Source of the DNA: Paramacrobiotus metropolitanus
Lineage: Eukaryota; Tardigrada; Eutardigrada; Parachela; Macrobiotidae
Length of the DNA: 64,000 bases
NCBI RefSeq assembly: GCF_019649055.1
Contig: NW_026570237.1
Span: 1,116,001-1,180,000, forward strand
Direction of reading: 5' to 3'
Of this stretch, positions 5,634 through 64,000 are shown piece by piece (positions within the stretch are counted from its first letter, which is position 1; every line of letters begins with the position of its first letter). The notes below the pieces were generated by a model that saw only the letters and a list, made by a program, of their open reading frames with translations, made no database searches and was not told where the DNA came from. The position numbers were made by a program, and so were the translations under genes.

Positions 5634-7708
5634 TTAACTGCCATAGAACTCTTCCTCCAGTGTTTTGGCGCGTCTGTGTATTGGCGCTTTGTGGTCTGTT
5701 TTGGCGCGTCTGTGTACAGTAGTCGCTTGTTTGTTACAGCGCGCGATTTGTTGAGTCTTCCACGCATTCATAATCCTGATGACCGATTTACCTTTGGTGG
5801 GGAGACCAATGCTGTCGGCATATGCTGAAAGCACACAAAATGCAATAAATACCTGCACGGTAAGACAGATTTGCGTTACGCGATAAAATCAGGTTACCTT
5901 TGATAACTGCCGTGAATTCTTTGCCAAACATGCGCTGCATCCCGGTATCCTTCAAGCCTTCGTCCTTGCAGCTCTTGGCACGCTGGTCCAGCTGCTCCAT
6001 TCCTTCCGCATTCGCACCCAGGAAGAGACAGTTGCACAGATACGCAATGTAGGATCCTTTGGTGCCGCGGCGATTTTTAACGGCCCACTCCAAGTAGCGC
6101 TTCTTTCCGGATTCAATGTAGACTTCACAGTGCTCAAAGCCGTCGAGGAGGAGCTCCTTTTTTGTTCCGGGCCGCTGAAACGGGAACTTGTATCCTGTAA
6201 GGCAAGCCGTTCTTTTTTTAAACATACAGTAATTTACAGATTTAGGAACTAGGAGAACGTGTAATAAATAATTCTAATCTTATTCCTGTAAGCACGGGCA
6301 GATAAACTGGATTGTACATTCGACAAAAAATTATTCCATTTATTCACGCCTGATACAAATGAAAAGCATGGTAAAAAATCCTCGCAAAAATTGAATAAAG
6401 ACTACACGAACCGGTCGAGCCATCTCCACGGTTTTGACCGCTATCCGTTGGCTCGTTTGTATCCGCATTATCAACCCCGGGATCACCCGTTCCTGCAGAC
6501 AAACATTATACTCGTGCACCATCATTCCGCTGTCGGGAGTAAACACAATATAATTGTATTTGTATCCATACCGTCCATTTCCGATGGCCCAGGAAGAACG
6601 GAATCGAAGTCCACAGCGAGATCATCGCTAGCTTCTACAACAACAGCACAGCACGGCACTCAAAGGAGTTTACAATAAACAAGACCGGAGCAGCAGTCTT
6701 ATACCATCAGCAACGGGGAGGCCGCCGGTATCGTAATCACTCTCCATGGGAGTGTCCTCTTGCGGTAGCGACGCATTGGCGTTTTGGGAGGATACTGCGG
6801 CATCGACAGCATCCGGGACGAACAGGGCGTTGAGATCAATCGGTTGACGACGGCCACTACCAAGCGCACTGCTGGCGACATTGTTTTTGGCAATGTTGCC
6901 CGCAACCGAAGATCTGGCAACATTACACGCATATTTGATATCTATTATCTCTGCTGTAAATAACTAAAAATTTTCAGAAGCAGAACGTTAAACCAATAAA
7001 GTGCACAAAAAGGCAACGGTCTCGTGGATATTGACGACAACCATAAGGAAACCCAAAAACAATCGAACTCGCCACAAAATAATACGTGTAAGAATATTTT
7101 GATTACCGTGTCATTTTGGTTCGCTGTGTTGGTGCGGAATTCGGTGTCATTTCGCGTTTATCCTGCTGTTTCTGCTTTTTTGCTGCCGGTTCCGCAACAA
7201 ACAACTCATTCTCCGCCGTATCCTCATCCCACTGTGCATTATCCCTGTCCTCCTCCTTCTCTTCCGCCAATTCTTCGTTTTCCTGCAGAATGCCCGCGTG
7301 CTCCAGCAGTTTCATGAGATCGTCCTCGTCGGCCAAGAATCGTTTTCCGATGATGGTTTTCACGTAACTGCCGCTCAGCAGCGTGTCCCCGATGTACACT
7401 GAAGGGACCAGCAGCAGCTGCTGGTTCTCCTCCGCCTGGCAGATGCGCACGCTCTTGCACATGCGGGGCAGTGTGCCGCGCAGATCCACCTGGAAGAAGA
7501 CCACTGTCTCCGCCGAGTGATCGATCGCTTTGCGCCAGTACAGAGGATTCGACTCCGGATCCACGCCGACCACTTTCACCAGGTCTTTGTAGGACATGGC
7601 TGCTGGCACGACTCGGTTGAATCGGGTGGAAGAGCGGAGAACGGGGCGGGCGCTGGTCACAGTGATACCCGTTGGAAGCGTCGCAGGAATTGCTCGCTGT
7701 CGCTTCAT
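5634..7708 (-). CDS. M1: N-module plus BEN-like regulator, family copy 1
   Basis: Six exons (7107-7708, 6705-6913, 6572-6634, 6412-6492, 5898-6194, 5634-5824) give 480 residues with the frame closed. Exon 1 starts MKRQR and holds the family N-module at residues about 38-142 (MSYKDLVKVVG through LLEHAGI), then an acidic tail and a KKQKQQDKR basic patch. Intron 1 is phase 2, all later introns phase 1. Exon 2 carries the linker motif GRRQPIDLNALF; exons 3 and 4 are short, acidic and multiples of three. Exon 5 (from residue about 319) is a BEN-like domain: GYKFPFQ, VYIESGKKRYLEWA, then YIAYLCNCLFLG. Exon 6 ends with a repeated HRRAKT block. BEN domains bind DNA or chromatin factors, so a nuclear regulator is inferred. 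The BEN call is by pattern only; the N-module family is not recognised. Confidence 0.82.
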
Positions 7709-7955
7709 GATACTGAGTGAGTGCAGCGCTTAAGAACGATAAGATCATAGAGCGTCCAACACTGCTATCACGCGGTTAACAAATCGTCCAAACAAAATCA
7801 AAGAGTATTAACTAAATTAATGGAATCCCTTCGTTCAAAGCCTAAAATAGATCGTACACTTCTACGCGAAGTTTAGAAACATGAAAAATCCTGTCTTTCG
7901 TTTCTGAATCAGAAATCTGATGGGATACATCTCCATCCAGGGTCGAACTGAAGTT

Positions 7956-7962
7956 AACCGCC
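7956..7962. promoter_or_regulatory. AACCGCC element upstream of M1
   Basis: AACCGCC lies about 250 bp before the M1 start codon, as the left arm of a short palindrome at 7955-7976 (TAACCGCC, then GGCGGTTA). M2 and M3 have matching palindromes at similar distances, within a longer block starting CATCCAGGGTCG. A promoter or 5' UTR element is inferred from this conservation. Confidence 0.5.
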
Positions 7963-8412
7963 ACTTGGGGCGGTTACTGCGTGGTCACAAAATAAACCGC
8001 TTGCTATGGGCGCTCTGTTCATAACTTCATATTCACGATCAAATAATTCAATCGTACAGATTTCTTATACATAACGCCATTATCCCTTCGCTTTGGCAAG
8101 GATATCCCGCAGTCTCCAAGCCCCGTTTAACGTAATATGTTGCAACAGAATTTACAGATGTAGATATTTACAGTTAATACCCAGCACATTGGAGAACATG
8201 GTGACTTATTTGCACAGGTTGCGAACAACTGCAATGAAATACTGCAGTAAAAGAATTTCCAACGCCGCCCTGCACAGCAGAGCATATAACATTTTATCAT
8301 TGGCCCTTATCAACCATCGAGTTGCTTTGGACAAATACGGTAGCATTTATTTACTGAACACCAAAAACTACACAAAGGTGACCATTCTGCTTGTGACCAT
8401 CCAAGACACCTG

Positions 8413-10755
8413 CTACTCGGGCTTCGTAGTGCGGCTCTTTCCGGTGGTCGATTGTTTGTTATAGCGTGCGATCTGGATAGTCTTCCACGCGTTCATTGCT
8501 CTGGAGAACGCATCACCTTTGGTTGTCAGACCAACGCTGTCGACATAAGCTGAAAATACAAGCAAATATTAACGTTTATTTCAAGTATTTGTTACTACAT
8601 AAAAACTCTCGTGTAATGTCGCTTTTGATACTTGATACAAAAAATAAACTGCAATAAATTACTGAACTATTAGGGGTAAAATCAGGATAGAGCGCAGTAC
8701 CTCTTATCGAGGCAAGGACTTCTCTGCCAAACATACGCTTCATCCCGGTGTCAGCAGATCCTTCGTCTTTGCAACTCTTTGCCAGCTTGTCAAGTTGCTC
8801 CAATCCTTCCAAATTGGGACCCAGGAAGAGGCAATCACACAGATAGGCCATATACGTATTTAGTGTTCCAAGTTTTCTCCTAATTTGCGACTCCAAATAC
8901 CGCGTCTTGGCGGATTCGATGTAGACATTATCGAATGCGTCGATTAGAAGCTCTTTTTTGGCTCCGCGGCACTGAAACGGGAACTTGTATCCTGTAAAAC
9001 GATCATTGTAAGGACATGATCCACAGAGTCAGTAGAGCGCAGCATCGCGACTCTATTTTTCAGTACAAAACCAAATTGCATAAACTGCGAAGCGGAAAAA
9101 GAGGTGGCTTATTTCATTTGATTATATCGTACAGTTTATAGTGTAGATAAAACAGCAAAAATTTATTTTAAGATTAAAAATTATTTTTTTGAAAACGGAA
9201 ATGGTTAAATATGGCATATGGCCGTAATGGCCCTACAATTTTGATAGCTTTACCTTCACAGGCAACAGTCACTGAACTAACGATTGCTGGTACACTATTT
9301 CACTGTTTAAAAAATTAAACATAGCAAAAACAACCAATATCTTTGCGGCTTTGCCTAACCCATATTCCGGTTCGCTTACAAACAAGCCACGGCCGAAACT
9401 GGAGAATCGAATACTTATCCACATATAAAACTGAACAAAATTGCACGAACCGGAAGTCGAGCCATTCCCACCGTTCTGACCGCTATCCATGGTTCGCCTA
9501 TTTCTGGACTGTCCACAGCGTGATCGTTAGGGTCTGAAAAAACAAACACAGTACAAAAACGTTCAGTTCTCAGGTAATTACGATGTCCGCATGCGTACCG
9601 TCTATTTTCGAGGGGCCTGGAGAAAGAGACTCGAAGCCCAGGGAGAGATACTCGTTGTCTTCGAAACAACGAAAGTGAAGCGCAAAAGAATCAGTAAACA
9701 AGCACAGCTGTATTAATGCTTACCATCAGCAACGGGGAGGCCGCCTGTTTCATAATCACCGGCCATCAGATTGTCCTCTTGCGGTAGCGACACATGGTCG
9801 TTTCTGAAGGAAGCTTCGGCCTCGACCGCCTCCGGGATGAAGAGGGCGTTGAGATCAATCGGTTGTCGACGAACATTAACAGCCGCACTGCCGGCATCAT
9901 TGTTCGCAAACGCAGCTGACGATGATCTGCAACATCACAGACATATGTATTTCCGTAGAAAGCACAATTTTCAACAGCATAACGTTAAGCCGTTCAAATA
10001 CAAGTGCAAAAAACAGACTACTAAAATAACCAAAATTTAAAATGCAACCGTGGTACCGTAGGGCGCAGATATGTGTGAGATAGTTTAGCAAGTCGCGAAA
10101 TCATCCTAACTGAAATATGTAGACAGAAGTGAGTCGTGCATCTCGATTACCTTGTTCTTGTGGTTCGTTTTCCTGGTGCGGAAGTCAAATGTATTTCGCG
10201 CTTATCCTGCTGTTTTTGCCTTTTTGCTGCTGGTTCCGCATACCCGTTCCCCGCCGCATCTCCACCACCCTCCTCGTTACCCCTGTCCTCCTCTTTCTCT
10301 TCCGCCAATTCTTCGTTTTCCTGCAGAATGCCCGCGTGCTCCAGCAGTTTCATGAGATCGTCCTCGTCGGCCAAGAATCGTTTTCCGATGATGGTTTTCA
10401 CGTAACTGCCGCTCAGCAGCGTGTCCCCGATGTACACTGAAGGCAGTGAAGGGACAAGAAGAAGCTGCTGGTTCTCCTCCGCCTGACTGATGCGGACGCT
10501 CTTGCACATGCGGGGCAGCGTGCCGCGCAGATCCACCTGGAAGAAGACCACTGTCTCCGCCGAGTGGTCGATCGCTTTGCGCCAGTACAGAGGATTCGAC
10601 TCCGGATCCACGCCGACCACTTTCACCAGGTCTTTGTAGGACATGGCTGCTGGCACGACTCGGTTGAATCGGGTGGAAGAGCGGAGAACGGGGCGGGCGC
10701 TGGTCACAGTGATTCCCGTGGGCATCGTCGAAGGGATTGCTCGCTGTCGTTTCAT
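8413..10755 (-). CDS. M2: N-module plus BEN-like regulator with a one-base shift
   Basis: Exons 10151-10755, 9724-9926, 9599-9658, 9451-9533, 8701-8991 and 8413-8549. Start chosen at MKRQR, as in M1 and M3. N-module, linker motif (RRQPIDLNALF) and BEN-like exon (GYKFPFQ, VYIESAKTRYLE, YMAYLCDCLFLG) closely match M1, and the last exon reads AYVDSVGL and ends in TKPE. Exon 4 is 83 nt, whereas the M1 and M3 counterparts are 81 and 84 nt. One base is missing near position 9490, before the block DSGQNGGNGS, which is in frame only after the shift. With that base the total would be 460 codons; as written, the BEN exon is out of frame. This is either a real break or a sequencing error. The rest of the gene has no stops, which favours an error or a very young lesion. 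Confidence 0.75.
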
Positions 10756-11644: not shown

Positions 11645-12377
11645 TCATTGATCCTGATATTTTGGCCGGCTACGATAGTAGTACAGTTTCCGGCTGAAAG
11701 ACTGCAACAGCTGTATTTCCGTTAAACCGCGTGCTTTCTTGGAGACGACAGCCGGGTGATAGCCGTTGATATAAGCTACAAAAAGAGGAAAAGAAGCAGT
11801 AACTTTCCGTTGATTCGTAAGTACATAAAATAAATTCATTAATATTAGTTTCCGCGAACTGCGTAATACCAGCAATTAAGTAGCAGCTGCATTAATTACC
11901 CTCAAAAAGATCTTCCACAACACAAACTCACGTCATATTATAACGATAAACAAACGATACCCTAAAGTGTTATATACTTTTATATTTTCAACAGTTATTA
12001 TATCTTGATTATATCGTTACTAATATTAAAATTAATAATATTGTTGCGCTAATATTCCTTCAAAAATTAAACGCGATAAAGCAGAACGACCTTACATAAA
12101 ACATCCTGGAGTTGCTCTCGGCCCAAGGCGTGCTTCAGACCGAACCGGTCGCCGGTGAACAACGCCAGCATGTTCTCCGTGGTGCCGAACAGCAGCTCAG
12201 CCAAGTTCACCGCGTCAATCCCCGGCCGGTTGGGGTGCAACTGCACTTTGAAGTTGTCCCAGATCGCTTTAGGTAGATAGGTGCGTGCTCCCGGGAAGAG
12301 GGTCACCGTGCCGGGCGTGCGACCGTTCCACACCTGGCGCAGGTTGTGTAAGATCTTTTTCTGGGCATCCGTACGCT
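11645..12377 (-). CDS. BEN-like terminal cassette without its own N-module (behind M3)
   Basis: Two exons, 12096-12377 and 11645-11775. The first begins after a phase-1 acceptor (CCATAG) and includes VTLFPGARTYLPKAIW, LAELLFG and GREQLQDVL, the same pattern as the BEN-like exons of the complete genes. It ends at a strong GTAAGG donor, again phase 1. The second reads SYINGYHPAVV and stops after KYQDQ. No N-module exon lies between it and the last M3 exon at 13228. Its length (282 plus 131 nt) keeps the frame if spliced to M3 exon 4 at 14763, giving 498 codons in total. It is either an alternative end for M3 or an orphan left by duplication. Confidence 0.6.
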
Positions 12378-13227: not shown

Positions 13228-16125
13228 TTACGGCTGTTTGCTGCGATTGCGGCGGTCAAATGCGATTATCTCTTGACTCTTCCAGTTATTCATGCCTGTC
13301 GTGATACTATCGCTTCTTGTAGATAACCCAACGGATTCCGCCCACGCTGCAAATAGTTCTTCGTAAATCCGTGAAGTAATAAACTGCTAAATGCAAGTTC
13401 CAGTTCGTATTTTGCAAGGTATTATTTTATTACCTTTTATGACGTCGATGAATGCACGACCAAAAATGCCCTGGACTCCAGATTTTCCCTTCTCTTGCTG
13501 ATCGGTGAGTTTTTTCAGCTCTTCAACCCCTTGATAGGGCGTGTCATCCTCGAGAAACAGATACCGGCAGAGATCCGCCATATAGGAGCCCTCCGTTTTA
13601 TCTCTTTTTCTGATGCTGGATTCCAGGAATTCCTTCTTGCCGATTTCGATGAAGATTCTAGTCCCCGGAAATCCTTGGATCAACAGAACTTTCTCGTCAC
13701 CGTCGATCTCGAATGGGAAACGATATCCTAAAGCAAGCCTGGCTATTTACACCCAAAATGTATCAAGAAACGTTCCAACGCCAATTCAGATAAAAAGGAA
13801 GCTCGATTTCTAATACCTGCATGCACTGGCTCAAGAGGAAGGAATGCTCTGACAAACAGCGATTTTGTAATCCCTCAAAGCTGCTGTTCCCTACTTACCT
13901 ATTTTTCCCTAATACGATCCGCTAAGAAAGGAAAGCACTAAAAGGGGTAAAGAGATCCTTGACGAAATTTGTCTGCCTACTGACTCCCGCCAGACTACAG
14001 CTAACTTGCTTGTGCCAAAATGGCAAACCGCTGCACTATATAGTATATAATTTATGCTTGAACCGAATTATGCTATTTTCGCATTAATGTCCGGCAAAGC
14101 AGCATGAGATTTTCGGTGAATTTGTATACGAATAAAAAAAAATACTTGAGATCGTTTTCCTTTTTGAAGACACAAAAGTCAAGTGTTCCGTCAGAGGATA
14201 ATTTGGGAAAGTGGATAATTCGATCAGCCTCGATCGACTTAGCAAAACGGCGGATAACTTCGTAAGACGTCGGAGCAAACCGACTCACAAAGTGAAATTA
14301 TTTAGACTCCTTACTGCTTAATCTGGCGGTACCATCACTTGGCTCCGATGTACTGGTGTGGTGTGGTGCGGGCTTCCGAGGTTTGACTGATGTACCTACA
14401 GTAAGCGGCAAATCGGACTTATTCAACATCACATGCAAACCATCACCTGTAGACTTAGTTTTGAGTCTCATTAATAAATCTCATTCACAAAATAATTTAA
14501 ATGCAAAAATCTGCGTTATAAAGGTACAAAAATCCGAAACTGCATATACTAGAATAACAGTTTTGCGTCTCTAATGATTAATTTTACTGACAAAGATCAT
14601 TACTGTCATCATAATCATAATTGTTGCCGACACCTAAAATCATCATAATTTAATAATAATTAGGATGAACAATTAAATATTCAGCAGAATTAGACAAAAA
14701 GCAGAAAACGAAATATCCATCGCCTTAGAAAACTGCACAAAATATACAACCACTGAACTAACCCGAAGCTGAACCGCTTCCACAATGTCCGCTGCCGTCT
14801 ACGGGTTCGTTCACTTCCGGGCTATCAACAGCGCCGTCGCCAGTGTCTTAAAACGCAACCAGATACACAGTCACAAATATAACTGTATGGTAATAATGGT
14901 AAGATAGTTGTACGATAGTATGATAGGCTTTCAAAAATAATTGTACGATAGTTATCCGCACCGTCTGCTGTGGATGGACCAGGAAGTTCAGCATCGAAGC
15001 CCAGTGCGAATTCATCGTTATCTTCTACAAGAACAACACGGACATTAGCGGAGTACAAGAAACACAACAGCCACCAGCGATCTCGTACCATCAGCAACGG
15101 GGAGGCCGCCGGTATCATAATCACTCTCCATGGGAGTGTCCTCCTGCGATAGCGACGCATTGGCATGTCGGGAGGATGCTTCGGCATCCACAGCATCCGG
15201 TACGAAGAGGGCGTTGAGATCAATCGGCTGACGACGACCATGAACAGGCGCACTGCCCGTAGCATCGTTTTCCGCAGTGGTATGCGCAGATCTGTAAATG
15301 ATAGGTTCCGTAACAGAAATACTAATCGGAAGATGTCGGAAGCAAAACGCAAATCAGCGCTACAATAAAAAACTTTAGCATGTTATGGGGGTACCTCGCT
15401 CTTGTTATCCGCGGCGCTGTTGTGGCACTGGCCTGTGTCTTCCGTTTTTCCTGCTGCCTCAATTTTTTGGGCGGAGTTTTTGAGCGTCCGGGCCAGTCGC
15501 CAGGCACACCGGGCAAGGCGCTGTCCGACTCCGAGTCCCACTGTGCATTCGCCGTTAGATCGCGCTTCTCTCTCTGTTTCATCTTCTTAGCCACTGGTTC
15601 CGCCACAAACATGTAGTTCTCCCCCGTATCCTCATCCCCCTCCGCAGTAGCCCGGTTCTCCTCTTTATCTTCTGCCAACTCTTCGTTTTCCTGCAGAATG
15701 CCCGCGTGCTCCAGCAGTTTCATGAGATCGTCCTCGTCGGCCAAGAATCGTTTTCCGATGATGGTTTTCACGTAACTGCCGCTCAGCAGCGTGTCCCCGA
15801 TATACACTGAAGGGACTAGAAGCAGCTGCTGGTTCTCCTCGGCCTGGCAGATGCGCACGCTCTTGCACATGCGGGGCAGAATGCCGCGCAGATCCACCTG
15901 GAAGAAGACCACTGTCTCCGCTGAGTGGTCGATCGCTTTGCGCCAGTATGAAGGATTCGACTCCGGATCCACGCCGACCACTTTAACGAGATCTTTGTAG
16001 GACATGGCTGCGGGGGACGCTGGTACGATCTGGTTGAATTTGGTGGAGGCGCGGAGAACGGGACGGGCGCTTGTCACAGAGATTCCCGTTGGAAGCGACG
16101 AAGGAATTGCTCGCTGGCGTTTCAT
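13228..16125 (-). CDS. M3: N-module plus BEN-like regulator, family copy 3
   Basis: Exons 15395-16125, 15089-15291, 14962-15024, 14763-14846, 13434-13727 and 13228-13346 give 497 residues in one frame. Exon 1 is about 130 nt longer than in M1 or M2: its basic tail is duplicated, with KKMKQREKR followed about 40 residues later by KKLRQQEKR. The N-module is otherwise nearly identical to M1 and M2, even at silent sites. The linker exon has GRRQPIDLNALF and exon 3 has FALGFDAELPGPS. The BEN-like exon reads GYRFPFEIDGDEK, RIFIEIGKKEFLES, YMADLCRYLFLE, and the last exon AWAESVGL with a KSQEII helix. A nuclear regulator is inferred. A second BEN-like cassette at 11645-12377 is phase-compatible with exon 4, so two protein ends are possible. 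Confidence 0.82.
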
Positions 16126-16882: not shown

Positions 16883-17354
16883 TCAGTTTTCTGGCTTCTG
16901 CCGTGGCTGTTTCTTATAGCCAAAGCGGGCTCGATACTTGGACAGATGGGAACCGAGAGTCTGCCCGAAACTCCGCGGGACTGCTCCCGGGCACTGTTTA
17001 TCCGACAATTTGGAAACGAAATCTACAAGCCGAAAATAAGAAGAACAATTTATTCAACAGGGCGATACATCCATCTGCTGGAGCGAATCTGTAGGCACTC
17101 ACGTTGAATGGCCTGTACCATTCGCTTATGGCACTGCGTGAGTCCCCGCTGGTCATTCTGCGCCGCGCTGGCCAAGTACCGGTGCACTCCGTCCTCGCCG
17201 CCCAGCAGAAATACGGCCAGGTTGCCGGCCAGATTCGATTTGGATTTGGCGCGGGATATTATGGCTTTCAGATCGCTGGGATCGATGTACACGCCGCTGT
17301 AGGGCGCCAGTTCCCGTTTGCCGGCACGCTTGATCTGATACGGATATTTGTCTC
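16883..17354 (-). CDS. BEN-like terminal cassette without its own N-module (behind M4)
   Basis: Exons 17103-17354 and 16883-17022. The first opens in phase 1 with GDKYPYQIKRAGKRE, then GVYIDPSDLKAIISRAKS, LAGNLAVFLLGG and HKRMVQAIQ, and ends at a GTGAGT donor in phase 1. The second reads HFVSKLSDKQCPG and stops after RQKPEN. This is the clearest BEN-like sequence of the window, with the VYI...L..A pattern typical of BEN domains. It lies downstream of the M4 MADF exon and has no N-module of its own. Joined to M4 exon 4 (19027), the frame closes at 435 codons, so it could be an alternative 3' end of M4. Confidence 0.6.
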
Positions 17355-18129: not shown

Positions 18130-20428
18130 CTACGCCAGCTGCTGGTGGCGCAGACCGTGGTTTTTCGTACCCGACCATCGGTCCAGCACCACGCGAACGG
18201 CGTTCTTCGCACCCTCGCGTTTTCCTTCCGGCAGCTGCTCCAGCGACGACGAGATCATGTGTCCAAACGCAGATTCGGTAGCTTCCGGTTGGCCTGGTGC
18301 TTGTATACTATACGAAACTGCCGCCTCAGAACGCTTGTCTCGAGGCTTTGTCGCGATAGAATCACTGGAAATGCCAGCCGAGGCATTAGCATCAGCCACA
18401 ACGACATCCTTCGTCGCTCCAGGCACCAAAAACGGCTTAACAAACTGCATGGCGCGAGCGTGCGTCCATTCCGGAAACGGTGCTCCCCGCATGTCTTTTG
18501 GTGGGCGCTTGCAGGCGTGCCGGAAGCAATTAGACAAGGAATGCCATTTCTTTTTGCACTTATCCACGGACAACCCGGTACTTTCAGAAATCGTCTTCCA
18601 GGCTTTCACTTTCACTGGCAGTCTCCGGTATCTGGGATCGTTTCGGTGCCAAAGACAAGGATGAGCCCGAATAAGTCCAATCAAACTAGTTTCAAACTGA
18701 AGATCCTCGTCGGCATCCAAAGCTAACAGAATATTCGGATTGCTGGCCTGATGTGCGTTAACGAAATCCTCTAAAGAATTAAAGTTGTCGATGGCGCAAT
18801 ACCCGAGCACGTCAACGGAATTCTTAAGAAAGAAGAAGTGGATGCCAAGTACTCGAAATGGTCCCACAAAGCAGCTACTGCGCCATCGTGCAATACTTTC
18901 ACTTGTTTTTTTTTAAACACAAACATTTTTTTTCGGAAAAATCACGAAGTACTGTACTTTATCACAAACTTTTTCTCAACTGCGGATGGGTTATTGGTTT
19001 CACTTAAATCTCGTTTCCTCATTCACCTTGTTCAAGTCCTGAAGTCTCCTCCACTTCCGCTCCAGCTCTGTTCACTTCAGGCTCGGGAAGAAAATCGGTT
19101 GTTTCTTCGCCAGATTCTACACAAAACAGTCGTGTTCACCGCGCGTTCAAAATTCAAGTACACCAGTTTCGTTGCATAAAGAATAATTACCCTCCATTTT
19201 GGATGAGCCGGGTATGTCGTCTCCCAACGGCAAATTATCGTCATCTGAAAAGTACAGAAATTCCAAAAAAATTTCGATGAGAAAGAAAATCGCCACTGAC
19301 CATCGGCCACAGGTAAAGCATCATCATCGAAGTCGCCAGCCATGAGCGAGTCATCAGCCGGAAGCGCGTCGATTTTCTCCATCATGAGAAGCGGGGAGAG
19401 ATCAACGGGCTGACGTCCGCCACTCACTGACGATTTTGGCTCCGCTGCTTTTTGGGAGACCGGCGCTGCGGTTGACGATCTGCGAAGAAAACCAAACCAT
19501 AGTTGCACCACTTGAAAATGACTGAAATTCAACAGCCTCAAGGTAAACCCTCCTTGCACAAGATAACTACCAAAACAATGGGCAACCAGAATACTGCATA
19601 AGTGAAATTGCGCAAAAAGTGTTCGTATTACTATTACTATTACCCTGTAGTTTGTACTCCTGCCATACATAATAAAAGCACGCACCAAAACTTGCTTCTG
19701 TGATTTTACAAGGCGCAACTTTCATGCAAAACTGCAAAAATTTCAAAATCATAATCTACGGTTAGAAAAACAGTCCATATGCGTAAATATACGCAGTATC
19801 GAACTATGTCGTCAACAAAAAAATATTCGAATTTCTACCTTGTCGTGCGTCGTCCTGAAGACTGTGTAGATTCCAAAACAACTCGGGGTTTCTCCGCCAC
19901 CCGCGCTCTTTTCGGCTCTGGTTCAGGCTCAAGTGGCTCATTCTCGCCTGCTTCATCTTCCCCATGGCCGCCGTCCCCATCTTCCGCGTTTTCCTCGAAG
20001 AATTCCCCGTCCTCCTGCAGAATGCCCGCGTGTTCGAGCAGCTTCATGAGATCGTCCTCGTCCGTTAAGAAGCGTTTTCCGATGATGGTCTTGACGTAAG
20101 TGGCGCTGAGCAGGCTCTCCCCGATGTACACCGACGGCACCAGCTTCTCCTCTTCCTGGCAGATGCGCACGCTCTTGCACATGCGCGGAGTGCTGCCGCG
20201 CAGATCCACTTGGAAGAAAACAACAGTCTCCGCTGAATGATCGATCGCTTTGCGCCACGACGACGGACTCGCCTCGCAATCCACACCCACCACCTTCACC
20301 AGCTCTTTGTACGACATGAATTCCGGGGCAACTATGTGGATCTGGTTCAGTCTAGTGGAGGGCCGAAGAACGGGTCTTGGTCGGGCAACTATTGGTATCG
20401 CTGACGTTCCAATACGCTGTCGTTTCAT
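18130..20428 (-). CDS. M4: N-module plus MADF-BESS regulator
   Basis: Exons 19839-20428, 19301-19479, 19191-19244, 19027-19116 and 18130-18770 give 517 residues in one frame. Exon 1 begins MKRQRIGTS and holds the N-module; the tail has the basic block PKRARVAEK. Exon 2 has GGRQPVDLSPLL, exon 3 DDDNLPLGDDIPGSS, exon 4 a glutamate-rich segment. The terminal exon carries a MADF domain at residues about 334-415 (LIGLIRAHPCLW, then WKTISESTGLSVDKCKKKW) and a BESS-like helix near 472-502 (FGHMISSSLEQLPEGKR). MADF binds DNA and BESS mediates protein contacts in insect Adf-1-type factors, so a sequence-specific nuclear factor is expected. A downstream BEN-like cassette (16883-17354) is phase-compatible. 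The same layout recurs in M5. Confidence 0.85.
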
Positions 20429-21360: not shown

Positions 21361-22013
21361 TCACTTCGCAGCTCCTTCAAACGTACGCAGCCGGTCAGAA
21401 TAGCTCTTACGTAATTTCCCCTGGATCTTTTCCACATCCAGAGCCTCTGTCCATTTCGAGTCGGGATGCTTCCTGATCATGCAGCGCTGATACCATTTCA
21501 CGTGATCTGTCAATTATCACAATATATAATTTGGCTAATCAACTGACACTGTTGCCCTAACAAAGAACGGTAAATTCTCGATTAACAGGAAAGCCAAAAA
21601 AACTCTCACTCCAAAATGCCACCCAGTTCTGTCTGCCTAAGACCTTGGCCAGCCCGACTCCTTTCTGCTTGTGTTTATGCGCAATGGCAATATTTTTATT
21701 ATCCATGATGACTTTCATCAGCGCTTTGGCATATTTGGAAGCCTTTGTAATTCTGGCATCCGCTCTCAGCTCACCCAGCTTGACAGCGCTAACGTAAAGG
21801 TCACCTTCTGCATCCAGTTTCACGCAGCCGTACTTCTTGGCCTCTACGTCGGTCATCAAGAAAGTGAATGGGACAATGTTGACAGCTGCCGAATAAAACA
21901 GCATCTTAGAACATAGCAGACCTTTCGTGTATTTGAATTTTTTATTTCACCCATTTTCGGGTTATTCCTGGATAGCGGAACAGGCAATGTCGGTCTTTCG
22001 TTGTCCTCCAGAT
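21361..22013 (-). CDS. Second BEN-like terminal cassette behind M5
   Basis: Three pieces: a short linker exon 21951-22013 (DLEDNERPTLPVPLS), a BEN-like exon 21610-21885 and a last exon 21361-21506. The BEN-like exon reads AVNIVPFTFL, DLYVSAVKLGELRADA, YAKALMKVIM, KVLGRQNWVAFW; the last reads NHVKWYQRCMIRKHP and stops after EGAAK. All junctions are phase 1 and all internal exons are multiples of three. No N-module exon belongs to it: the nearest upstream is M5. The cassette joins in frame to M5 exon 4 (24951). The domain call is weaker than for M1 because the start (GYKFPF in others) has changed to AVNIVPF. Confidence 0.5.
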
Positions 22014-22536: not shown

Positions 22537-23396
22537 CTAAATTTGATCTTCTTCGTCGATTTCCTTGCCGTCCTGCTTCAACTTTTTAACCCACAAGTTC
22601 ATTTTTTCAGTGAGAGAAGTGGGGAGGCTGGCCGGCATTTTGTGGACTCCAGTCCGGGCGGGATGACGCATAATGACTGCAAGATGACCTTTAGAACGGA
22701 AACACGGTCATAACGAGCGTTCTGTCAGGGAAATTCAGTCTAAAACGCCTAGCTGTCATTTAAGACTCAAGATCTACTTGAGATTTATGAATTAGAGATG
22801 CGTACTTTGTATCGCCTTGAAAAATTCAGTTCCCAGTATCTTTTCCTGTCCGCCGTAGCATTGCTTGTTTTTCGCAATCTTTGTCGCTTCTCTCTGCAGT
22901 TCGAAGAGGGACGCCAGCCGCCGTAAGCCGGCTTCCCCACCGATCATCCGCAGCATCAAGTACCAGATGTATTTAGTCAAAGTCAGGTCCGCGTATAAAT
23001 AATTATCCAGCAAACGTTTATGGTCCAGGTCAACATACACCGCATAGTCGTCATGCAGTCGGCGCTTTGTACTCGGGTCGGGAATTTGGAAGTACCATGG
23101 TGCGGTGCGATCGAACAGAGCCACGCAGTTCAGAGGAACGAAAGAGGGGGTCTTCTTTAATACGTCCTTTTTCTTTGCCACGGTGATGCGGAAAAGATAC
23201 GCGTACTTAGTTCCTACAAAACGGCAATCGCATAAATGACAGCTGAGGAATACGAGTTTTAACATGCATTAATTAAACGTTCGATAAACGAGTTTAAAGA
23301 ACTATAAAAAGTTACCATAAAGCTCCATTAACGATGCATTTCCAAGAGCCTTCCTAATGTTATCCACATCGGCAGTATCGGCATTCTGGACGTGAA
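22537..23396 (-). CDS. First BEN-like terminal cassette behind M5
   Basis: A linker exon 23316-23396 (VHVQNADTADVDNIRK), a 408-nt domain exon 22806-23213 and a last exon 22537-22676, all joined in phase 1. The domain exon opens GTKYAYLFRI, as other BEN-like exons open GYKFPF, then has DDYAVYVDLDHKRLLDN, LMLRMIGG and ILGTEFFKAIQ. The last exon ends in EIDEEDQI. It is longer than the other BEN-like exons and diverged. It lies between the M5 MADF exon and another cassette and has no N-module. It keeps frame with M5 exon 4, so M5 may have three alternative C-termini. Confidence 0.5.
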
Positions 23397-33481: not shown

Positions 33482-34221
33482 TCAAGACATCCTTTCAAGC
33501 CACCGACTTTTAGCAGCACAAGAATCCTTTGCAACCAGAATTGGCATCTTGGCAGATTTGGCTTTATTGGACTCCTTTATTGCATTTTTGATACGCCATG
33601 AGGCGAACCGCGACGCCAGATGGGTACTCAAGGAACATTTTAATTTCTTCTTTGGCATTGCACTTTCCAGATGACCTATCGGAAATTGTCCAAGTAAGGT
33701 TAATTTTCTCCAAAAAGGTATTTATTACAAATGTATATACAATACATGCCAAACTGTGGATACGTTACAGCTTATGGTTAGTCGTAATATTTTATGACAG
33801 TAATCAATGGAACATGTACACGTTCTTTTGATACGGACAATTTTACAAACAATTACTTGGTATTGCAGCTTACGTTCTAAAGATTCCAGAAACTTCTTGC
33901 CAAGCAAATACACGATTTGCCGTTGCTGTCTGGCATGCCACAAGGATTCCAGCCGGTTCATGCCCTTTATGCCGCCCACCAACGTGTAGAACATGCTCCA
34001 CGAGTAGAAGTCGATATTGTTGGTATGATTTTTGTACCACGGCAGAACAGCCTCTTCAACGTACACATCCGGCACATCCGGATGCAGGAGAATCTTTCCC
34101 GGACCGGGCTGCGAGAAATACCATTTTCCTGATTTGTCACCCAACCGCACGAGTTCCGGTGGAACAGTATACAACGGTTCCTTGACGCATTTGGCATCAG
34201 TACCCGTTTCGTCTTCTTCGC
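33482..34221 (-). CDS. BEN-like terminal cassette behind M8
   Basis: Exons 33874-34221 and 33482-33675. The first begins in phase 1 at GEEDETGTDAK and contains GKWYFSQPGPGKIL, DVYVEEAVLPWYK, WSMFYTLVGG and YLLGKKFLESLE, then a GTAAGC donor. The second reads HLESAMPKKKLKC, then RFASWRIKNAIKESNKAK and stops after RWLERMS. The order of motifs matches the cassette behind M5 (WYFQIPDP, YVDLDHKRLL, LMLRMIGG, LGTEFFKAIQ). There is no N-module between this and the M8 Myb/SANT exon. The cassette keeps frame with M8 exon 4, giving 500 codons. A plus-strand frame over 33393-33674 is its shadow. Confidence 0.55.
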
Positions 34222-45265: not shown

Positions 45266-47951
45266 TCATCGCCCGGGCAAGTTTTCATAATTCTTCCGTG
45301 GATTACATTTCTTGACGCCCCACTTGTCAGCTACCGCTTTCGAGTCGACTATGCGAAAAATTCCCGCCCTTTTGTCGTCCCATCGAATAATGGTGGGATT
45401 GCACCTGGAATCTTTCAGCAAATCCCGAATAAAATTCCCATAAATGGTTGCCTTCTGATCCTGCAGGAAAGTCGTATTACACCAAGAAGCAAATCTTAAC
45501 GGGGCCAATATCTGTACTCATACTGTACTGTCTGTACATACGAGTACTCGTACTTTTCCCTTTTCGGAGGCTAGCCAGTTCATGATGCCGCAACTGCGCA
45601 TTGTCATCTTCAATTTCCTCTTCCCCCGAGGTATCGTCGAAACCATCCGAATCCCTGTATTCACATTCGTGGTCGGACATGCATGAACCTGCAAACGCAT
45701 TCGAAAAAAAACAGACTTATATTTAATATTGATCACCGGTCAAGCTAAAAAGGTTAAACATTTTCACCATTGGCGAGCTGCCAACGTCTTACCAAACTGT
45801 GGCAATCATAAATGATTATTCGGAAATATTGTACTTCGAGTAATTCTCATACGCTGTACTTGAATTATCTGCAGAATTATCTTCGCCGGCAAGCCGCCGA
45901 TCAACATGCGGTCTTTTCCTGGCAGACTTATCCATGGTTTCTACAACAGCACGTTACGAAAATTGTCGAATGAATTTGGCCTTTATGAGAACACATGTAT
46001 ACCGTGCGTTGTGGATGGTCCGGGAACATACGTAGTCTCCTAATGCCACTGGTACTGTAAATCATCGTCATCATTGGCGGCTATAAACTACAAAATACGC
46101 GCAACGCGATGACTGGTCGCCAAAGCATTATTCGCTTACCATCATCAGTCGGAAGTCTGTCCATTTCGAAGTCGGTGCCGTCTGGAACGTCATCCGGAAC
46201 TGCCGTCTCTGTTGGAGCGGTGACACTGTTGTCCACTGCAAAAACTGAAGGAAGATCGAGGGTATCGCTTCCGCCCGTGCTACCGTGATCATTGTTATCA
46301 TGATCAGGAATTTCGAAAGTTACCGCCGGATGGGAAAGCGACCGTTGCGATCTGCACATGGAGAACAGAAAATTGATCGCTAACTTTGTGATATCGAACC
46401 AATTGATCACAAATCTGCTATACAAGTAAAAAAAAATTTTATCAACTATAGCAAACCGGAAGTCGCGACAAAAATGGAGGACACAGTCGACAACGTGAAA
46501 TAGGTCAAAACCCTGAAAGCTAACGAAATAGATAAAAATAACTAATATTTAAAAATTCAGACATATAATTTCCTATATTTTTTGTACTATTTTATAAAAT
46601 AATTTATTTCTATACTTATTTATTTCTGTTTCAATCCCGAAGCATTTTCTAATGTATTATGTACTTGTATTATTATACTTTGAATGACTAAACCTTTAAT
46701 AAGTATCATGGTACGAGTACAAACTATGCACCAGAACAAAACAGCATTTACAAAAGAAACACTTCCTCTATGCTATCCTGATCGGGGATCGTACCCATTA
46801 CACAAATCGCGTTTCCCCGTTGTATTTGCATAGAAATTCGCTGTTTAAAAAACTCTTTCGCCCGCTTTTGGCCAGTTGAAGTCGCTATACCGTTTCCAAC
46901 CGTTTCCACTAGCTTTTTAGTACCGTCTCCAAAAGGTCCGTAAATTTCGAAGGCTGCAGCAACGAAATCGTATCTTGTTTGCATCCAAGCGTGTTTCGCT
47001 AATTTCTTCCTTTCAGCAAGCTCGGCTGCTGCGCCGGCATTCACGGAAGTGCGGTCGATATACGAGGCTGCCAGCGTGTCCACGCAAGTAACATCCAATG
47101 CCAGCGGTTTTCCGCGCTTCCACGGAATGAGGGTGATCACATCCGGCCTCTTCTTACCTTTGAATTACTTTCTATACTTTCTAGTATTTCTATACTTTCT
47201 TATAATTTTCAGATATTTTCTATTTAATTTTCAATATCTTTGTAATTTTTTATAAATAATTATATTACGGTTTTTACCTGAAAACCCAGATGTCTACCAT
47301 GATTTTATATCAGTGGAAATTAGGAAAAAACAAACAAATCACCGAAACTAACATGGTCCATGCGGTTGGTCCAGGTTGTGGTTGCATTTTCTCGCCAAAT
47401 TTTGCTCGCTTTGGTATAGGCTGCGGACTAGCAGCGCCATCTTCGCTTTCCGCGCCACACCAGACGTTATCATCATTGTTCTCCTCATCCTGTTGTTCCA
47501 CAACCGGCTCCTCGCTCTCCTTCAACACTCCCGCGTGCTCCAGTAGCTTCATGAGATCGTCCTCGTCAGCCAGATATCGCTTGCCGATGATTGTCTTCAC
47601 ATAATCTCCACTGAGCAGCGTCTCCCCGATATACATGCGCGGGATCAGCCGCTGCCTGTCCCCGGCCTCGTGGCAGATGCGCACGCTCTTGCACATGCGG
47701 GGCAGTGTGCCGCGCAGATCCACTTGGAAGAAGACCACAGTCTCCGCCGAGTGATCGATCGCTTTGCGCCAGTACAAAGGATTCGACTCCGGATCCACGC
47801 CGACCACCTTGATCAGATCTTTGTAGGACAGAGCTGCGGGGGATGTTGGCACGATCTGGTTGAAACGAGTGGAGGATCGGAGAACGGGTCGTGTGTTGGT
47901 GGCAGGGACACCCGTTGGTTTCGTCGAAGTGATTGTTCGATGCCGTTTCAT
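45266..47951 (-). CDS. M10: N-module plus truncated ETS-like domain, damaged linker
   Basis: Exons 47353-47951, 46140-46351, 46003-46080, 45860-45940, 45554-45688 and 45266-45516. Start MKRHRTITS, N-module intact, exon 2 of the M8/M9 type (DVPDGTDFEM). The terminal exon is ETS-like: FIRDLLKDSRCNPTIIRWDD, then GIFRIVDSKAVADKWGVKK and KNYENLPGR, where ETS proteins have the recognition helix. The stop falls just after this, so the rest of the recognition helix and last strand are absent. Exon 3 has an in-frame TAG relative to M8 and M9, caused by small insertions; its length stays a multiple of three, so skipping it would keep the frame. Intron 1 contains a retrotransposon fragment. M10 may be a decaying copy or a skipping isoform; the ETS call is by pattern. 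Confidence 0.68.
46748..47157 (-). pseudogene. 5'-truncated non-LTR retrotransposon tail in intron 1 of M10
   Basis: An open frame of about 135 residues reads RPDVITLIPWKRGKPLALDV, then TCVDTLAASYIDRTS, AGAAAELAERKK, FEIYGPFGD and QRISMQIQRGNA. This order matches the segment found after the reverse transcriptase domain in many animal non-LTR elements. The reverse transcriptase and endonuclease are missing, as in a 5'-truncated insertion. It lies on the same strand as M10, inside intron 1. Confidence 0.7.
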
Positions 47952-57922: not shown

Positions 57923-58667
57923 ATGTTGCAGTTCCTCGCTTTCGCCTGCCTCCTGGCGACCGCCCTCGCCGGTCCCGGCAACCGGAAGCCGAACCCGGAC
58001 AGCGTGACCCGCGACGTCGGCAGCTTCACCGGCATCAGCATCCTGGAAGGCAACAACGTCCAGGTGGTGGCCATCCTCGGCGACGAGGAATCCGTCACCA
58101 TTGAGGGCACACCGGAAGTCCAGGAGGCCTTCAGCACCGTCGTCGACGCCGAGGGCGTCCTGCAGATCACCATAACCCGCCTTATACGCCAACCTGGCGA
58201 CCACCGCATCGTGGTGCGGGCTAAACAGCTGACGCGGCTGTCCACCGCCGGGTCATCAGAGATCATCATCCAGACGCCGTTCACGGTCGACCGGCTGGAG
58301 CTGACGACAAAGAGCTCCTCGCAGATTATACTGCAGGGTGCGGTGACCGCGGATGTGTTCACGGCCACGGCGAAGGGGTCATCGCGGATCATCGCCTGTT
58401 AAGCAGTCCGGGCAGTGGAGGTGTCGGCAGATAAGACCGCGTCGGTGACCCTGACCGGAACGGCCGCGGCGTTGTCGCTCAACATTGTCAATGATGGGTC
58501 GTTCCGCGGCGGGTTGGTGGTGGATAAGATCAATGCAAAGGTCACCGGGAGGGGCAAGGCTACGTTGACGGCGAGGAAGACCATCAATGTCGATAAGACC
58601 AGCACGGCCGGAAGTCGTCACCGGGGGTCCGGCGAAGGTGACCATCATCATCATAACCCAAGAATAA
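57923..58667 (+). pseudogene. Secreted protein with GIN-like (DUF2807-like) beta-repeat domain, broken
   Basis: The frame opens with a signal peptide (MLQFLAFACLLATALAG) and continues with FTGISILEGNNVQVVAILGD, GTPEVQEAFSTVVDAEGVLQ and a string of short beta-like repeats (LTRLSTAGSSEIII, LTTKSSSQIILQG, FTATAKGSSRII). This order resembles the GIN or DUF2807 head domain, mostly known from bacterial outer-surface proteins. A TAA at 58400-58402 interrupts it, yet the same frame continues with matching sequence (VEVSADKTASVTLTG, FRGGLVVDKINAKVTGRGKA). A later one-base shift near 58615 separates the final segment (VTGGPAKVTIII), which ends at a TAA at 58667. The codons are strikingly GC-rich compared with the surroundings. 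Two lesions make a pseudogene the simplest reading. Confidence 0.65.
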
Positions 58668-59206: not shown

Positions 59207-61303
59207 TCAGGTTGTACTGGGAATTTTTTTGGAATTATACACCCGCCGTTTTCGTCGCTGCATAATCTCCGGTTTGGTAAAGGCCAGTTTCTCGATGAAG
59301 GGCCAGGTGGTTGTCCGTTCGGCGTTGGTGCGGACCAGTCGCCGGTAGGTGGCCCGCACATTCTCCCATTTCCACATGCAGTCCTGACAGGATTTCGGGA
59401 CCCCCGTGCCCGTCTGATTGACCATCTCGGCCACGTTCGCCCAGGCCACGCGGCGCTCCTGGGTGCGGGCAGCTGTTCCCAGGCCCGCTATGCTGCTCTT
59501 CTGCCAGAGGAACGGCTGGGCGTGCACGCCGTCAATCAACGCCAGCACCTCCTCGAAACTGAAATCCCGGCCTTCGTAACTGGTGGCGGCGGTGTGCGTC
59601 CGTGGTTCTATCGCAAAAAGAGCGCCACAGTAGACAAACATCTTGGGCTATATTCTTTTCAAAGTTTCTGATCAAAAACAGCTGGCGTACGTTTTGAAAA
59701 TTACAGATCTTTGCGGACAACGAAATGTGTTAGCGCAACGCCGCAAAATACTTCAAATTTTTCATACCTGATGCATCACCAGGATCGTGTTCCCCTTCCA
59801 GTCCAGCCTCTGCATGCTCATCCTCGCTGTCTACAAAAATACAGAATTTAGGATTAAGAGAAGACAGACAACAGAAAAATTTAAAAAAATAACTGAGAGC
59901 GAATGCAGAGAAAGCCAGAATATGACACAGAACAGATAGAGAACAAGAGCAAACAAAAACAAAATAAAAGCAGAGAAAACAGAATGTTATTACAAAGAAC
60001 CGATTAAGAGCATCACTCTTGAGCAGCTCGTACCGAGTCTCGGTGATCCAGTCTCATCGTATCCCAAAGGCATGTCATCCTGGTCTGATAAATTAACACT
60101 ATTAAATACTACTTATTACTTCATCATACAGACGCCTATTAAAATCCCACCTACCGTCGCCGGATGGAAGACCGCTCAAATCTACGTCGGCGTCTTCTTC
60201 CGCAGCGGTTTCAGCGCTGCTCGTCGATGGCTTGTCCAATGCGTTCACTAAGACATCAACGGGCCGGCGACTGCCACTGACGTCAGTATGCGATTCAGCG
60301 TCTTTTTCCACAAGTGAAGCTTGCGATCTGCAAATCGGAAAAGCCATAAAAATGCGTAAATGTCAGAAAATCTTCTACAGCACGATTTATATTTCAAGTA
60401 CTTACGGTAAAGACACCGACACGGTACTTAGTTTTCCACGTTAAAAGCAAAATTTGAAAAAATCATTAAAATTTAAAACTTTCTGGATTTAAAATTAATA
60501 TTATTTCAAAATTTTATAGCCAGATTAAATTAACTAATACAAAATAATAATATTCACTCACGCATATTATGGCGTTCGATTCAGGGCGATATTAAAAACA
60601 TAATCAAAAATTCAAAATCACACGAAAGTAAAAGCACAGCTGAAAATAAGAAAACCATAGGGAAATTCAGGTAGTAGTTAAATTAAATTTGCACCAGGTA
60701 GGCAAGTACCTTGATATAGCAGTTTTTTGTGGCAGCCCTGAATGTTTCTTCCCCGATACTTTCCTTCGTTTCGGAACGGGCGCAGCCCTATACGGTTCAT
60801 TTTCCACCTCCCCTTCGTCCCACTCCTCATCTTTCCTCTCCTCGTCGTTCTCCTCGCCTGCTTCTTCATCCGCCTGCAGCACTCCCGCGTGTTCCAGCAG
60901 TTTCATCAGATCGTCTTCATCCGCCAGGAACCGTCGTCCGATCACCGCTTTCACATAATCCGAACTCAGCATGGTATCGTTGACACACACTGGGAATCAG
61001 ACGGCCCTGCCTGCTGTCCCCATGGGCCTGTTCACGACAGATACGCACGCTCTTGCTCATGCGGGGCAGTGTGCCGCGCAGATCCACCTGGAAGAAGACG
61101 ACTGTCTCCGCTGAGTGATCGATCGCTTTGCGCCAGTACAGAGGATTCGATTCTGGGTCCACCCCGACTACTTTGATGAGGTCTTTGTAGGACATGCAGG
61201 GAGTGGAGGGGGATTTAATCTGGTTGAATGCAGTGGAGGAGCGCAGCGCGGGTTTCGCGCTGGCTGCTGGAACTGCAGCGGATGCAAAGCGCCGACGTTT
61301 CAT
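59207..61303 (-). CDS. M11: N-module plus Myb/SANT-like regulator with a shift in exon 1
   Basis: Exons 60710-61303, 60155-60327, 60034-60084, 59768-59830 and 59207-59607. Start MKRRRFASA (a second ATG lies directly upstream). The N-module is conserved through GRLIPSV, where the frame shifts near 60990; the other frame resumes with VNDTMLSSDYVKAVIGRRFL and LMKLLEHAGV. One extra or two missing bases explain it. Exon 2 has SGSRRPVDVLVNALD and the ending VDLSGLPSGDG; exon 3 DQDDMPLGYDETGS. The terminal Myb/SANT-like exon reads FSFEEVLALIDGV, QPFLWQKSS, CMWKWENVRATYRRLV, TTTWPFIEKLAF. With the shift corrected the total is 427 codons. The four later exons have no lesions. Confidence 0.75.
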
Positions 61304-62052: not shown

Positions 62053-62381
62053 CTATCGGTGACGCCGCTTTACGCTTTTATCGGACTGACAAATGGACGT
62101 ATGATGCGTAAAGGCCGAAGTTCCGGCATGTTCGCCGCGGCTGAATACTTTCGAACATCTCCGACATTGGGCAAACGGCAACTCCTTCCCCGCCTCGTCA
62201 AACACCGTGTAAAAATATTCCCAGAATTTCGCCCTGGCGTTCTCTTTGGGCTTCGTATAGTATCGTCCCGCAGCAATATTCGCTGCGCAGTCATCTTTTC
62301 TAATGACATAGACCGGAGTGGATTTTGCCTTCTTCATCCCTTTTGTTTTTCTGCTGTCACTCGGCTTCAAAGCAGCCCCAT
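62053..62381 (-). CDS. BED zinc-finger terminal cassette without its own N-module (behind M12)
   Basis: A single terminal exon beginning at a phase-1 acceptor (GATTGTAG) and ending in TAG after VKRRHR, about 109 residues. It carries a BED-type finger: FWEYFYTVFDEAGKE, then CRRCSKVF with two cysteines and FTHHTSIC with histidine and cysteine ligands. BED fingers bind DNA and are common in hAT transposases and chromatin insulators. A basic lead (KTKGMKKAKS) precedes it. There is no upstream N-module exon before the M12 FAR1-like exon, and the reading phase fits M12 exon 4, so it is probably an alternative end of M12 or an orphan. Confidence 0.65.
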
Positions 62382-62882
62382 CTACAATCGCAATACAACT
62401 TCAGTAACGCTTATTTCAATTTAGAAGTACATCTTAATAATTCGTCACCATGTTCCTTCACAACTTATTTATTCATTCACAGTTGAGTGGCGTTTAAATG
62501 GACCACCACAGTTCGTTATTTGCGCAACGCAGAGTCCCATGAAGTTCGGTTGAACATAACACAGTGCGTAAAAAATTACAAAACTGGTTTATACACAATT
62601 TAGTGGAATGTCTTTATTGTAGATGCACTCTCCGTCAACACGAGGAAACGCTGATATACAATTGTTCATAAGGCAATATCCTTTTTTGGGTTTACGAAGA
62701 CAACTTCACTGGTTCTGGATCGCTTCCGCACAACACCCTTGCAATAAAGGTCATACGGCAAAATTCTCGCGATACAACAAGCTCGATTGCTGTTGCACCG
62801 GGCCTTCAGAATGCCGGCTGCTTTCGGCAGATGGCCCAAAACACTTCCGCTACTTCTGCTCAGCGCCCATATATTCTGGAAG

Positions 62883-64000
62883 CTAAACATCTTCGGACGT
62901 TGTTCCTCTTCCAGTATCTTTCCTGATTGACGGAGGAATGACCATTGTTGGCATACGGCTGGATTGCAGCGCTCTGACTTTTTCTCGCTCACCACTATCC
63001 CGCTGGCGTTTGTACATATTATGGCGTTGGTGCGGGGCTTCCCTGAATGGATGTGTGTGCTCGCCATGTCTGCTCATATGGGATATTCGCATGATATGCT
63101 CGCGCTTGTACAGCGTGACGGTGAGGGTGAACGGGCATCCCGTCAACTTGGGAGTGGTCGGTTTGCGCTTGCCAGTAGACCCCCCACGGTGACTGCAATG
63201 GTAGATGACGCGCCGGAATTTGTACACTTCCTTGTCGGGATCCAGAGCCGGCAGCGGGACGGAGCGTTTCACGGTCAGGGTGGTCGAGGTGTCGGTCTTG
63301 TACCGCTGCAAGGCTGACATGAATTCAATGTAGGAATGGAATGTGGCACCTTGGTAGAGAGAATCGTGCTCTCGCGCCACCGCGGGTGCTGCAAGGTCAC
63401 CGTCGTCCAACTCTATGTCGTGCGCTGTATTAAGAGTCTGGTGCATGTTTGTCGCTACTCTCTAGCTATCGCCGTTATTTTTACCTCTTTCCTCTTCGAA
63501 ATCGGGATCATCTTCCAACCCAGGTTCAGGATGTTCTTCGTCACCTTCTGTACAAGCAAAAAAAGCCGATTTGCATACCGAAATACCCATTACACAGGAA
63601 GGAAAACATTGTGGAAAGTACTTACCGTGTGCAGAGGAACCGGCAGTGTATTGGGCGTATTCGGATAAAGGAAAATTCTGATTATCTGCGAAATTCAAAG
63701 CACGCCTTACCATTGCTTCAAAAGCCTTTTAGACGCTGCACTGATTAGAAGCGTACTTCTTTGTTAAAAATTAGCTACGCGCTTGCGAATTTTCAAAAAA
63801 ACACGAAAAAGAACGAAAAAATAAAGTATTAAAAATAAGACGCAAATAGTTTAATAGTTTCATCTCGGTAGCAGGTAACCCATTAACCTGAAATAGCTGA
63901 AATAAGACGATATCATAGTTTTGACTAACCATCTTCAGCGGCAACCCCACTCATTTCCGTATCTGCATCCATTACATCGGCTGGATTTCCTCCCAAAGCG
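62883..64000 (-). CDS. M12 (partial): linker exons plus FAR1-like zinc finger
   Basis: The upstream part, including the expected N-module, lies beyond the right edge. Visible exons: 63930 to the edge (end of the exon-2 type linker, DTEMSGVAAEDG), 63626-63685 (DNQNFPLSEYAQY), 63485-63547 (Glu/Asp-rich) and the terminal exon 62883-63457. Junctions are phase 1, as in the other copies. The terminal exon resembles the FAR1 or MULE-type (WRKY-GCM1 fold) finger also seen at the start of ZSWIM proteins: YQGATFHSYIEFMSALQRYK, then YHCSHRGG, LTGCPFTLTV and HMSRHGEHTHP with the paired Cys and His. Such fingers bind DNA and descend from Mutator-type transposases. Membership of the M family rests on the linkers and phases, because the N-module is not visible. 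The first residues of the terminal exon are uncertain. Confidence 0.68.

Follow-up and report, generated by a model that had tools for sequence, protein, structure and literature searches.

A tandem gene family in Paramacrobiotus metropolitanus whose common N-terminal head appears to have been joined to different putative DNA-binding ends

How can neighbouring genes keep one beginning while their ends change? The question is raised by a 64,000-nucleotide stretch of the genome of the tardigrade Paramacrobiotus metropolitanus (RefSeq assembly GCF_019649055.1, contig NW_026570237.1, labelled C17 here; C17:1116001-1180000, hereafter the window), in which one N-terminal exon recurs ahead of downstream exons of different kinds. 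We think it likely that these genes form a lineage-expanded tandem family of chromatin or transcription factors whose heads have been recombined onto different putative DNA-binding cassettes, because several of the 3' ends appear to differ in history from the heads. In this family, exon 1 would encode a conserved head (the N-module) and exons 2-4 acidic linkers, after which the gene would run, in phase 1, into at least one 3' cassette: MADF, a BEN-like domain followed by a basic tail, or a FAR1-like exon with a BED zinc finger. Copies appear to have arisen by tandem duplication, and a block in the head exon seems to have been homogenised between some of them, two steps for which sequence comparison gives support. 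The phase-1 symmetry would let a cassette splice in without breaking the frame, and the proteins may bind DNA through the end while the head contacts a shared partner or other heads of the family.

The window, which has a GC content of 39-50%, contains 11 copies of the N-module exon. Ten copies lie on the minus strand, as do all exons given below unless stated: A (7107..7708), B (10151..10755), C (15395..16125), D (19839..20428), E (25822..26405), F (29413..30020), H (36573..37159), I (40370..40962), J (47353..47951) and K (60710..61303). The copy in G (30514..31133), which has a weak donor, is on the plus strand. Gene L is cut by the right edge of the window, just past which its N-exon, the twelfth, is found; M, N and O are further copies on C17. 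The genome searched comprised 169,799,020 bases in 533 contigs of one assembly (C-numbers label contigs, and L-numbers label fetched stretches outside the window, L017 being C90). At least 29 N-module loci were found, the identical set from two queries, with 15 on C17, 8 on C67 and one each on C41, C48, C2, C156, C42 and C6. This count is a lower bound, and gene K appears as two rows in one genome search. A tree of the N-modules, from which O was absent and in which K was represented by a part, was weakly resolved: 5 of its 25 inner branches had good support.

A sequence-only reading of this DNA had described eleven complete genes and a partial one, built on a shared module of about 105 residues in exon 1. 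The module is real in the window copies, and the eleven N-exons and partial gene L are present, but the genes are not all complete. The N-exon of K is split by a frameshift, the MADF exon of I is frameshifted, no end was recognised downstream of the N-exon of J in the fetched stretch, and no last or tail exon was found after the BEN-like exon of H.

That reading also placed a phase-2 intron after exon 1 and phase-1 introns thereafter, and here it was borne out. The intron between exons 1 and 2 is in phase 2, and exon 2 (A, 6705..6913, phases 2-1; B, 9724..9926; C, 15089..15291), which in most copies, A included, encodes a D-L-[NS]-[AP]-L motif, closes in phase 1. Between it and the ends lie short acidic exons, such as exon 3 of A (6572..6634) and of L (63485..63547). 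Downstream exons were initially sought in phase 1 only and later scored in all nine phase combinations, with codon scores trained on open frames of the same family, which favour the expected exons and not any particular phase. Phase 1, or 1-1, was still best for 25 of 29 downstream exons in genes A-F, H, K and L. These 25 include the BEN-like exon of B, which has no acceptable donor in phase 1-1. The four exceptions are exon 3 of K and of L and the MADF exons of D and E, although the latter two have a common conserved phase-1 acceptor.

What, then, are the ends? MADF (PF10545) scored above the Pfam gathering cut-off in D, E, G, H, K, M and N, and a genome search added I (partial, with its frameshift) and O. 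Six window genes are thereby like known MADF proteins in having the domain above cut-off: D (18130..18770), E (24102..24742) and H (34632..35056), each with a terminal stop, G (32558..32970, plus strand) and K (59207..59607), where the exon is terminal, and the frameshifted I (38175..38597). They are unlike them in that MADF is here C-terminal, behind an unrelated head, and has no Pfam BESS match. The genome search gave 29 MADF matches at E values up to 0.01 but missed the MADF of G; C17 holds eight of the matches (D, E, H, I, K, M, N and O). A combined MADF-BESS type had been proposed; the MADF part stands, whereas no BESS model was seen in D or E at E values up to 1 nor in any of 40 protein scans, and their C-terminus is BESS-like by eye only. 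Myb/SANT-like ends dissolve as a separate type, as they score as MADF above cut-off (in K, Myb_DNA-bind_4 scores slightly above MADF). An ETS-like end was likewise not recovered, no Ets model appearing in the 40 protein scans, some of which were on proteins other than ends.

The second main kind is a family of exons in A (5898..6194, phases 1-1), B (8701..8991, with a weak donor), C (13434..13742), D (17103..17354), E (22806..23213), F (27311..27625) and H (33874..34221). In A (5634..5824) and B (8413..8549) the last exon encodes a basic tail, and D has such a tail exon as well (16883..17022). The seven window ends and two C67 ends form one family in leave-one-out tests with profile hidden Markov models (HMMs), in which every one of the nine came out ahead of all other open reading frames (ORFs) that its profile had not been trained on (5,391 ORFs overall), with E values from 4e-27 (B) to 3e-6 (D). 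One caveat here is that the nine ends were pre-chosen, since iterated profiles had joined or nearly joined them, D and F being borderline. The second end-type exons of C (12096..12377) and E (21610..21885) were also tried as members and were not placed, with ranks of 51 and 27, and we keep them outside the family.

The likeness of this family to BEN-domain proteins comes from a fold model. AlphaFold modelling of the A exon, shortened by its final portion, from seven window sequences gave a mean pLDDT (predicted local distance difference test score) of 83, and among the 25 chains compared with this model by a structural aligner the BEN domain of NACC1 was best (Z 3.7, 2.8 Å, 61 residues), so that the predicted fold weakly resembles BEN. 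Several results weigh against this identification. A Z of 3.7 is far below the range that the aligner calls distinctive and may reflect a mere common arrangement. Foldseek returned nothing at E <0.001 for the model, and BEN was not in its list. At the sequence level, Pfam BEN was unmatched in the window ends A-F and H at E values up to 1 and in the spliced ends of A, D and F and the second ends of C and E at E values up to 10, and hhalign against four PDB BEN fragments gave no significant alignment. A whole-genome Pfam BEN search yielded one sub-threshold match only, none of the seven window ends matched any Pfam model above cut-off, the E end having a sub-threshold match to FAM177 only (E 0.012), and the family profile against PDB sequences had a best E of 0.3 (MDY2), which we take as chance. 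We call these exons BEN-like and not BEN because the fold match is weak and the sequence-level comparisons are negative; the BEN-like end of the sequence-only reading thus stands as one family with a weak NACC1 resemblance, without a Pfam or profile match.

A FAR1-like end and a BED cassette had also been reported, and a FAR1-like candidate and a BED exon do occur together, though only in partial gene L. The FAR1-like exon (62993..63424), which occupies the place of MADF, matches Pfam ZSWIM3_N at 28.1 bits against a cut-off of 27.8, with no FAR1 model itself matched. The BED zinc-finger exon (62053..62381) matches PF02892 (62053-62400) at 26.6 bits against a cut-off of 20.6. M has a downstream BED-like exon that is 61% identical to that of L and lies below the Pfam cut-off. 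In place of at least five unrelated domain types, the ends are mainly of two kinds, MADF and a single BEN-like family, to which L adds the FAR1-like/BED end.

Across the 29 N-module loci, 10 have a BEN-like end only (A, B, C, F, C67a and C67c, and tentatively, on weak profile scores, C67f, C67g, C67h and C42), six have MADF only (G, I, K, M, N and O), three have MADF and BEN-like ends (D, E and H), and L alone has the FAR1-like/BED end. For the remaining nine (J, C41, C48, C2, C156, C6, C67b, C67d and C67e), no end was found in the fetched stretch. BEN-like copies also occur as orphans, on C90, C12, C22, C109 and C19. The C90 contig has no N-module match; directly after its BEN-like copy, a piece resembling a non-LTR reverse transcriptase was noted by eye (L017 4837-5046). 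On C22, C109 and C19 (L018 3408-4352, L019 and L021), contigs without an N-module match, the BEN-like exons lie in another type of gene.

The genes D, E and H pose a particular problem, as in each the BEN-like exon lies downstream of a MADF exon with its own stop. The two cassettes would serve a single gene as alternatives; their simplest use would be as different 3' ends within a shared transcription unit, as happens in the Drosophila gene lola. The BEN-like cassettes may also be separate genes or dead cassettes. That they are remnants of separate genes without heads of their own would agree with the MADF stops, with the likeness of D and E for at least ~100 bp beyond those stops and with the existence of the orphan copies, and yet we hold it to be rather unlikely. 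The BEN-like exons of D, E and H start with phase-1 acceptors and their frames are open; D and H have no methionine ahead of the domain, and in E the sole upstream methionine lies before the acceptor. Moreover, E and the C90 copy share an additional upstream internal exon (in E, 23316..23396), the acceptor and donor of which align and are conserved. Polyadenylation hexamers follow both MADF and BEN-like stops but are too frequent to discriminate.

Have ends in fact moved between heads? In the pair D and E, the number of synonymous substitutions per synonymous site (dS) is 0.48 for exon 1, 0.45 for exon 2, 0.76 for exon 4 and 0.60 for MADF; for the exon 2 values here and below, exon ends are accurate to a few codons. 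For the BEN-like ends of the same two genes, the proportion of synonymous differences (pS) is 0.83, which is saturated, and the nonsynonymous counterpart of dS (dN) is 0.86. DNA homology between D and E runs through MADF and ~100 bp past the stop; beyond that, a single weak stretch extends as far as 300 bp after the stop of D, and then homology ceases. The E exon instead shows 77% protein identity to the C90 copy (dN 0.17; pS 0.84, with synonymous sites saturated).

Discordance of the same kind is seen for A and C. In exon 2, dS is 0.29 between A and C and 0.41 between A and B, which puts A nearer to C, whereas the end of A is nearer to that of B (62/96 residues, 65% amino acid identity) than to that of C (42/91, 46%). 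The C exon is nearer to the orphan copy on C12 than to A or B, and together with the following stretch it aligns with the C12 stretch at 76% nucleotide identity over 540 columns. In L and M, exon 1 is 89% identical and exon 3 with its preceding intron 71%, and homology ends 10 bp past the exon 3 donor, after which L has the FAR1-like exon and M has MADF. The MADF exons of O and M are 72% alike. These discordant divergences and sharp breaks in homology (D/E, A/C, L/M) support the reading that ends have been exchanged between copies.

Plain duplication followed by loss would start from an ancestor with a head, MADF and a fast-evolving BEN-like end, and the spread of both kinds of end across the family speaks for it. 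Several further observations side with it and against exchange. A and B are collinear through the BEN-like exon and tail (identity is 73% for exons 2-3 and likewise 73% for the end), H and I are collinear through MADF, and loss of one end from a two-ended ancestor explains A, B, F, G, I, J and K without a swap. In addition, synonymous estimates near saturation are unreliable. As a full account, we nevertheless judge duplication and loss to be unlikely. The BEN-like ends are under purifying selection (dN/dS about 0.19 for A/B and 0.22 for C/C12), and fast evolution alone fails to explain the D and E ends because the ends are constrained: a dN of 0.86 far exceeds what the dS of their heads allows. 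Nor would it place a copy 77% identical to the E end on another contig, one without an N-module match, or make the replacement between L and M exact at the intron. We therefore prefer exchange for those pairs and read the pattern as follows: swaps are indicated for some genes only, and much of the presence and absence of ends is explicable by loss. The locus had been described as a shuffling locus; the shared head with different putative DNA-binding ends survives from that description and exchange is indicated, although not among five unrelated types and not in every gene.

A further question is how the heads stay alike. Within exon 1, a core block of ~140 bp is unusually similar between distant copies. 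Between the groups ABC, G and HIJ, the core has 1-6 synonymous differences per 40-43 comparable codons, compared with 19-28 per 50-60 codons in the rest of exon 1, and the two regions differ in all 15 cross-group pairs (Fisher P values 1e-5 to 2e-3; the pairs are non-independent). The cores of D, E and F differ from those of A, G and H at 8-14 of 36-41 codons, the core of K differs from the homogenised group at 8-11 of 39-41, and L, M and N show similar or greater differences. Homogenisation of the core by gene conversion is the most likely explanation, as judged from these sequences. Two results count against conversion. In a longest-run permutation test, only 1 of 78 pairs passed the Bonferroni correction (A/G, P = 0.0003), and in the above comparisons of D, E and F with A, G and H, which serve as control pairs, the core is again less diverged than the rest of exon 1 (17-28 of 47-56), so that some constraint on synonymous sites is possible, which falls short of the near-identity among ABC, G and HIJ. 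That selection on synonymous sites, acting on an RNA or DNA element, kept the core without conversion would suit the control pairs and the confinement of synonymous identity to ~140 bp, but it is quite improbable, since in D, E, F, K, L, M and N ~20-50% of comparable codons in the block differ from the homogenised group, versus 2-15% within it.

The head itself resembles little that we could name. No Pfam model matched the N-module above cut-off; sub-threshold scores were TSA (E 0.057) and LRRC37AB_C (0.19), and for 22 N-module members DUF444 (0.2) and DUF6678 (0.22) only. The N-module profile against PDB had a best E of 0.74 (lin-9), which we take as chance, and against IMG/VR it gave 38 pattern matches, 0 of them confirmed. 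By analogy with ZAD, the N-module most likely serves in protein-protein interaction or in oligomerisation. The AlphaFold model speaks against leaning on this, as its pLDDT is 42, and because of this low confidence the role is a guess. The N-module pattern may be like that of a small domain that occurs beside THAP and transposase domains in invertebrate proteins.

Several other features lie in or near the array. In intron 1 of gene J (46748-47164, minus strand), a piece resembling a non-LTR retrotransposon reverse transcriptase was noted by eye; neither this piece nor the one on C90 had a Pfam match above cut-off. In the 3' region of J, open frames at 43401-44236 and 44579-44896 resemble L002 6396-8130, the latter stretch additionally resembling L003 at about 4538-4877, and these are probably dispersed repeats. 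C2H2 zinc-finger open frames adjoin both the array (L001 712-1362) and, on the same contig, the outlier copy O (L004 1358-3184). Two FLYWCH zinc-finger open frames stand beside the array (2098-2694, minus; 3040-3702, plus), and a third frame similar to this pair lies at L002 5138-5464. Finally, an open frame at 57917-58402 (plus strand), with a start that by eye is like a signal peptide, matches DUF2807 (putative auto-transporter adhesin, head GIN domain) with an E value of 7e-15; in an animal genome, horizontal transfer is possible for such a frame.

How does this arrangement compare with known systems? ZAD-ZNF and KRAB-ZNF proteins belong to lineage-expanded families in which an N-terminal domain for interaction is joined through a linker to a DNA-binding part at the C-terminus (PMC7655104). 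The present genes are similar in having one N-terminal head, a linker, a C-terminal putative DNA-binding part and lineage expansion. They differ in that the ends of those proteins are C2H2 fingers, whereas here the ends come from different families and the head has no Pfam match above cut-off. In lola, a BTB gene, a common N-terminal region is spliced to many alternative C-terminal ends (PMC5127561). Our family is like it in combining one type of head with different ends, which would be alternatives of a single gene in D, E and H; lola, however, is a single locus with one common region, whereas here the head is repeated in tandem with each end.

A host head that gains an end of a transposon-attributed domain type would also be like the host-transposase fusions on which Cosby et al. 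2021 reportedly worked. This comparison is drawn from the domain names in the Pfam scans. The FHY3 domain is of the FAR1 type. MADF, BED and FHY3 domains have been attributed to PIF, hAT and MULE transposons (PMC10027918). Capture of transposon-derived domains as ends would fit this attribution.

We met no description of such a family among the open-licence PMC papers listed on MADF and BEN proteins and on tardigrade transcription-factor expansion. Families of regulators with a shared head and changing DNA-binding ends arose separately in insects (ZAD, BTB) and in vertebrates (KRAB). A bolder version of our reading, which we offer tentatively and think possible but doubtful, is that copies of the head exon, kept alike by gene conversion, act as a common starting point, phase-1-spliced to downstream cassettes, including two ends per gene, that swap with orphans elsewhere; the locus would then keep producing new nuclear regulators, much like a lola that is repeated in tandem and recombines. 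If the family is what we think it is, it would add a further case of shared-head nuclear regulators, with a head unmatched in Pfam above cut-off, in which head homogenisation and end replacement can both be traced at exon resolution within ~80 kb. The family may thus show how one lineage builds new gene regulators.

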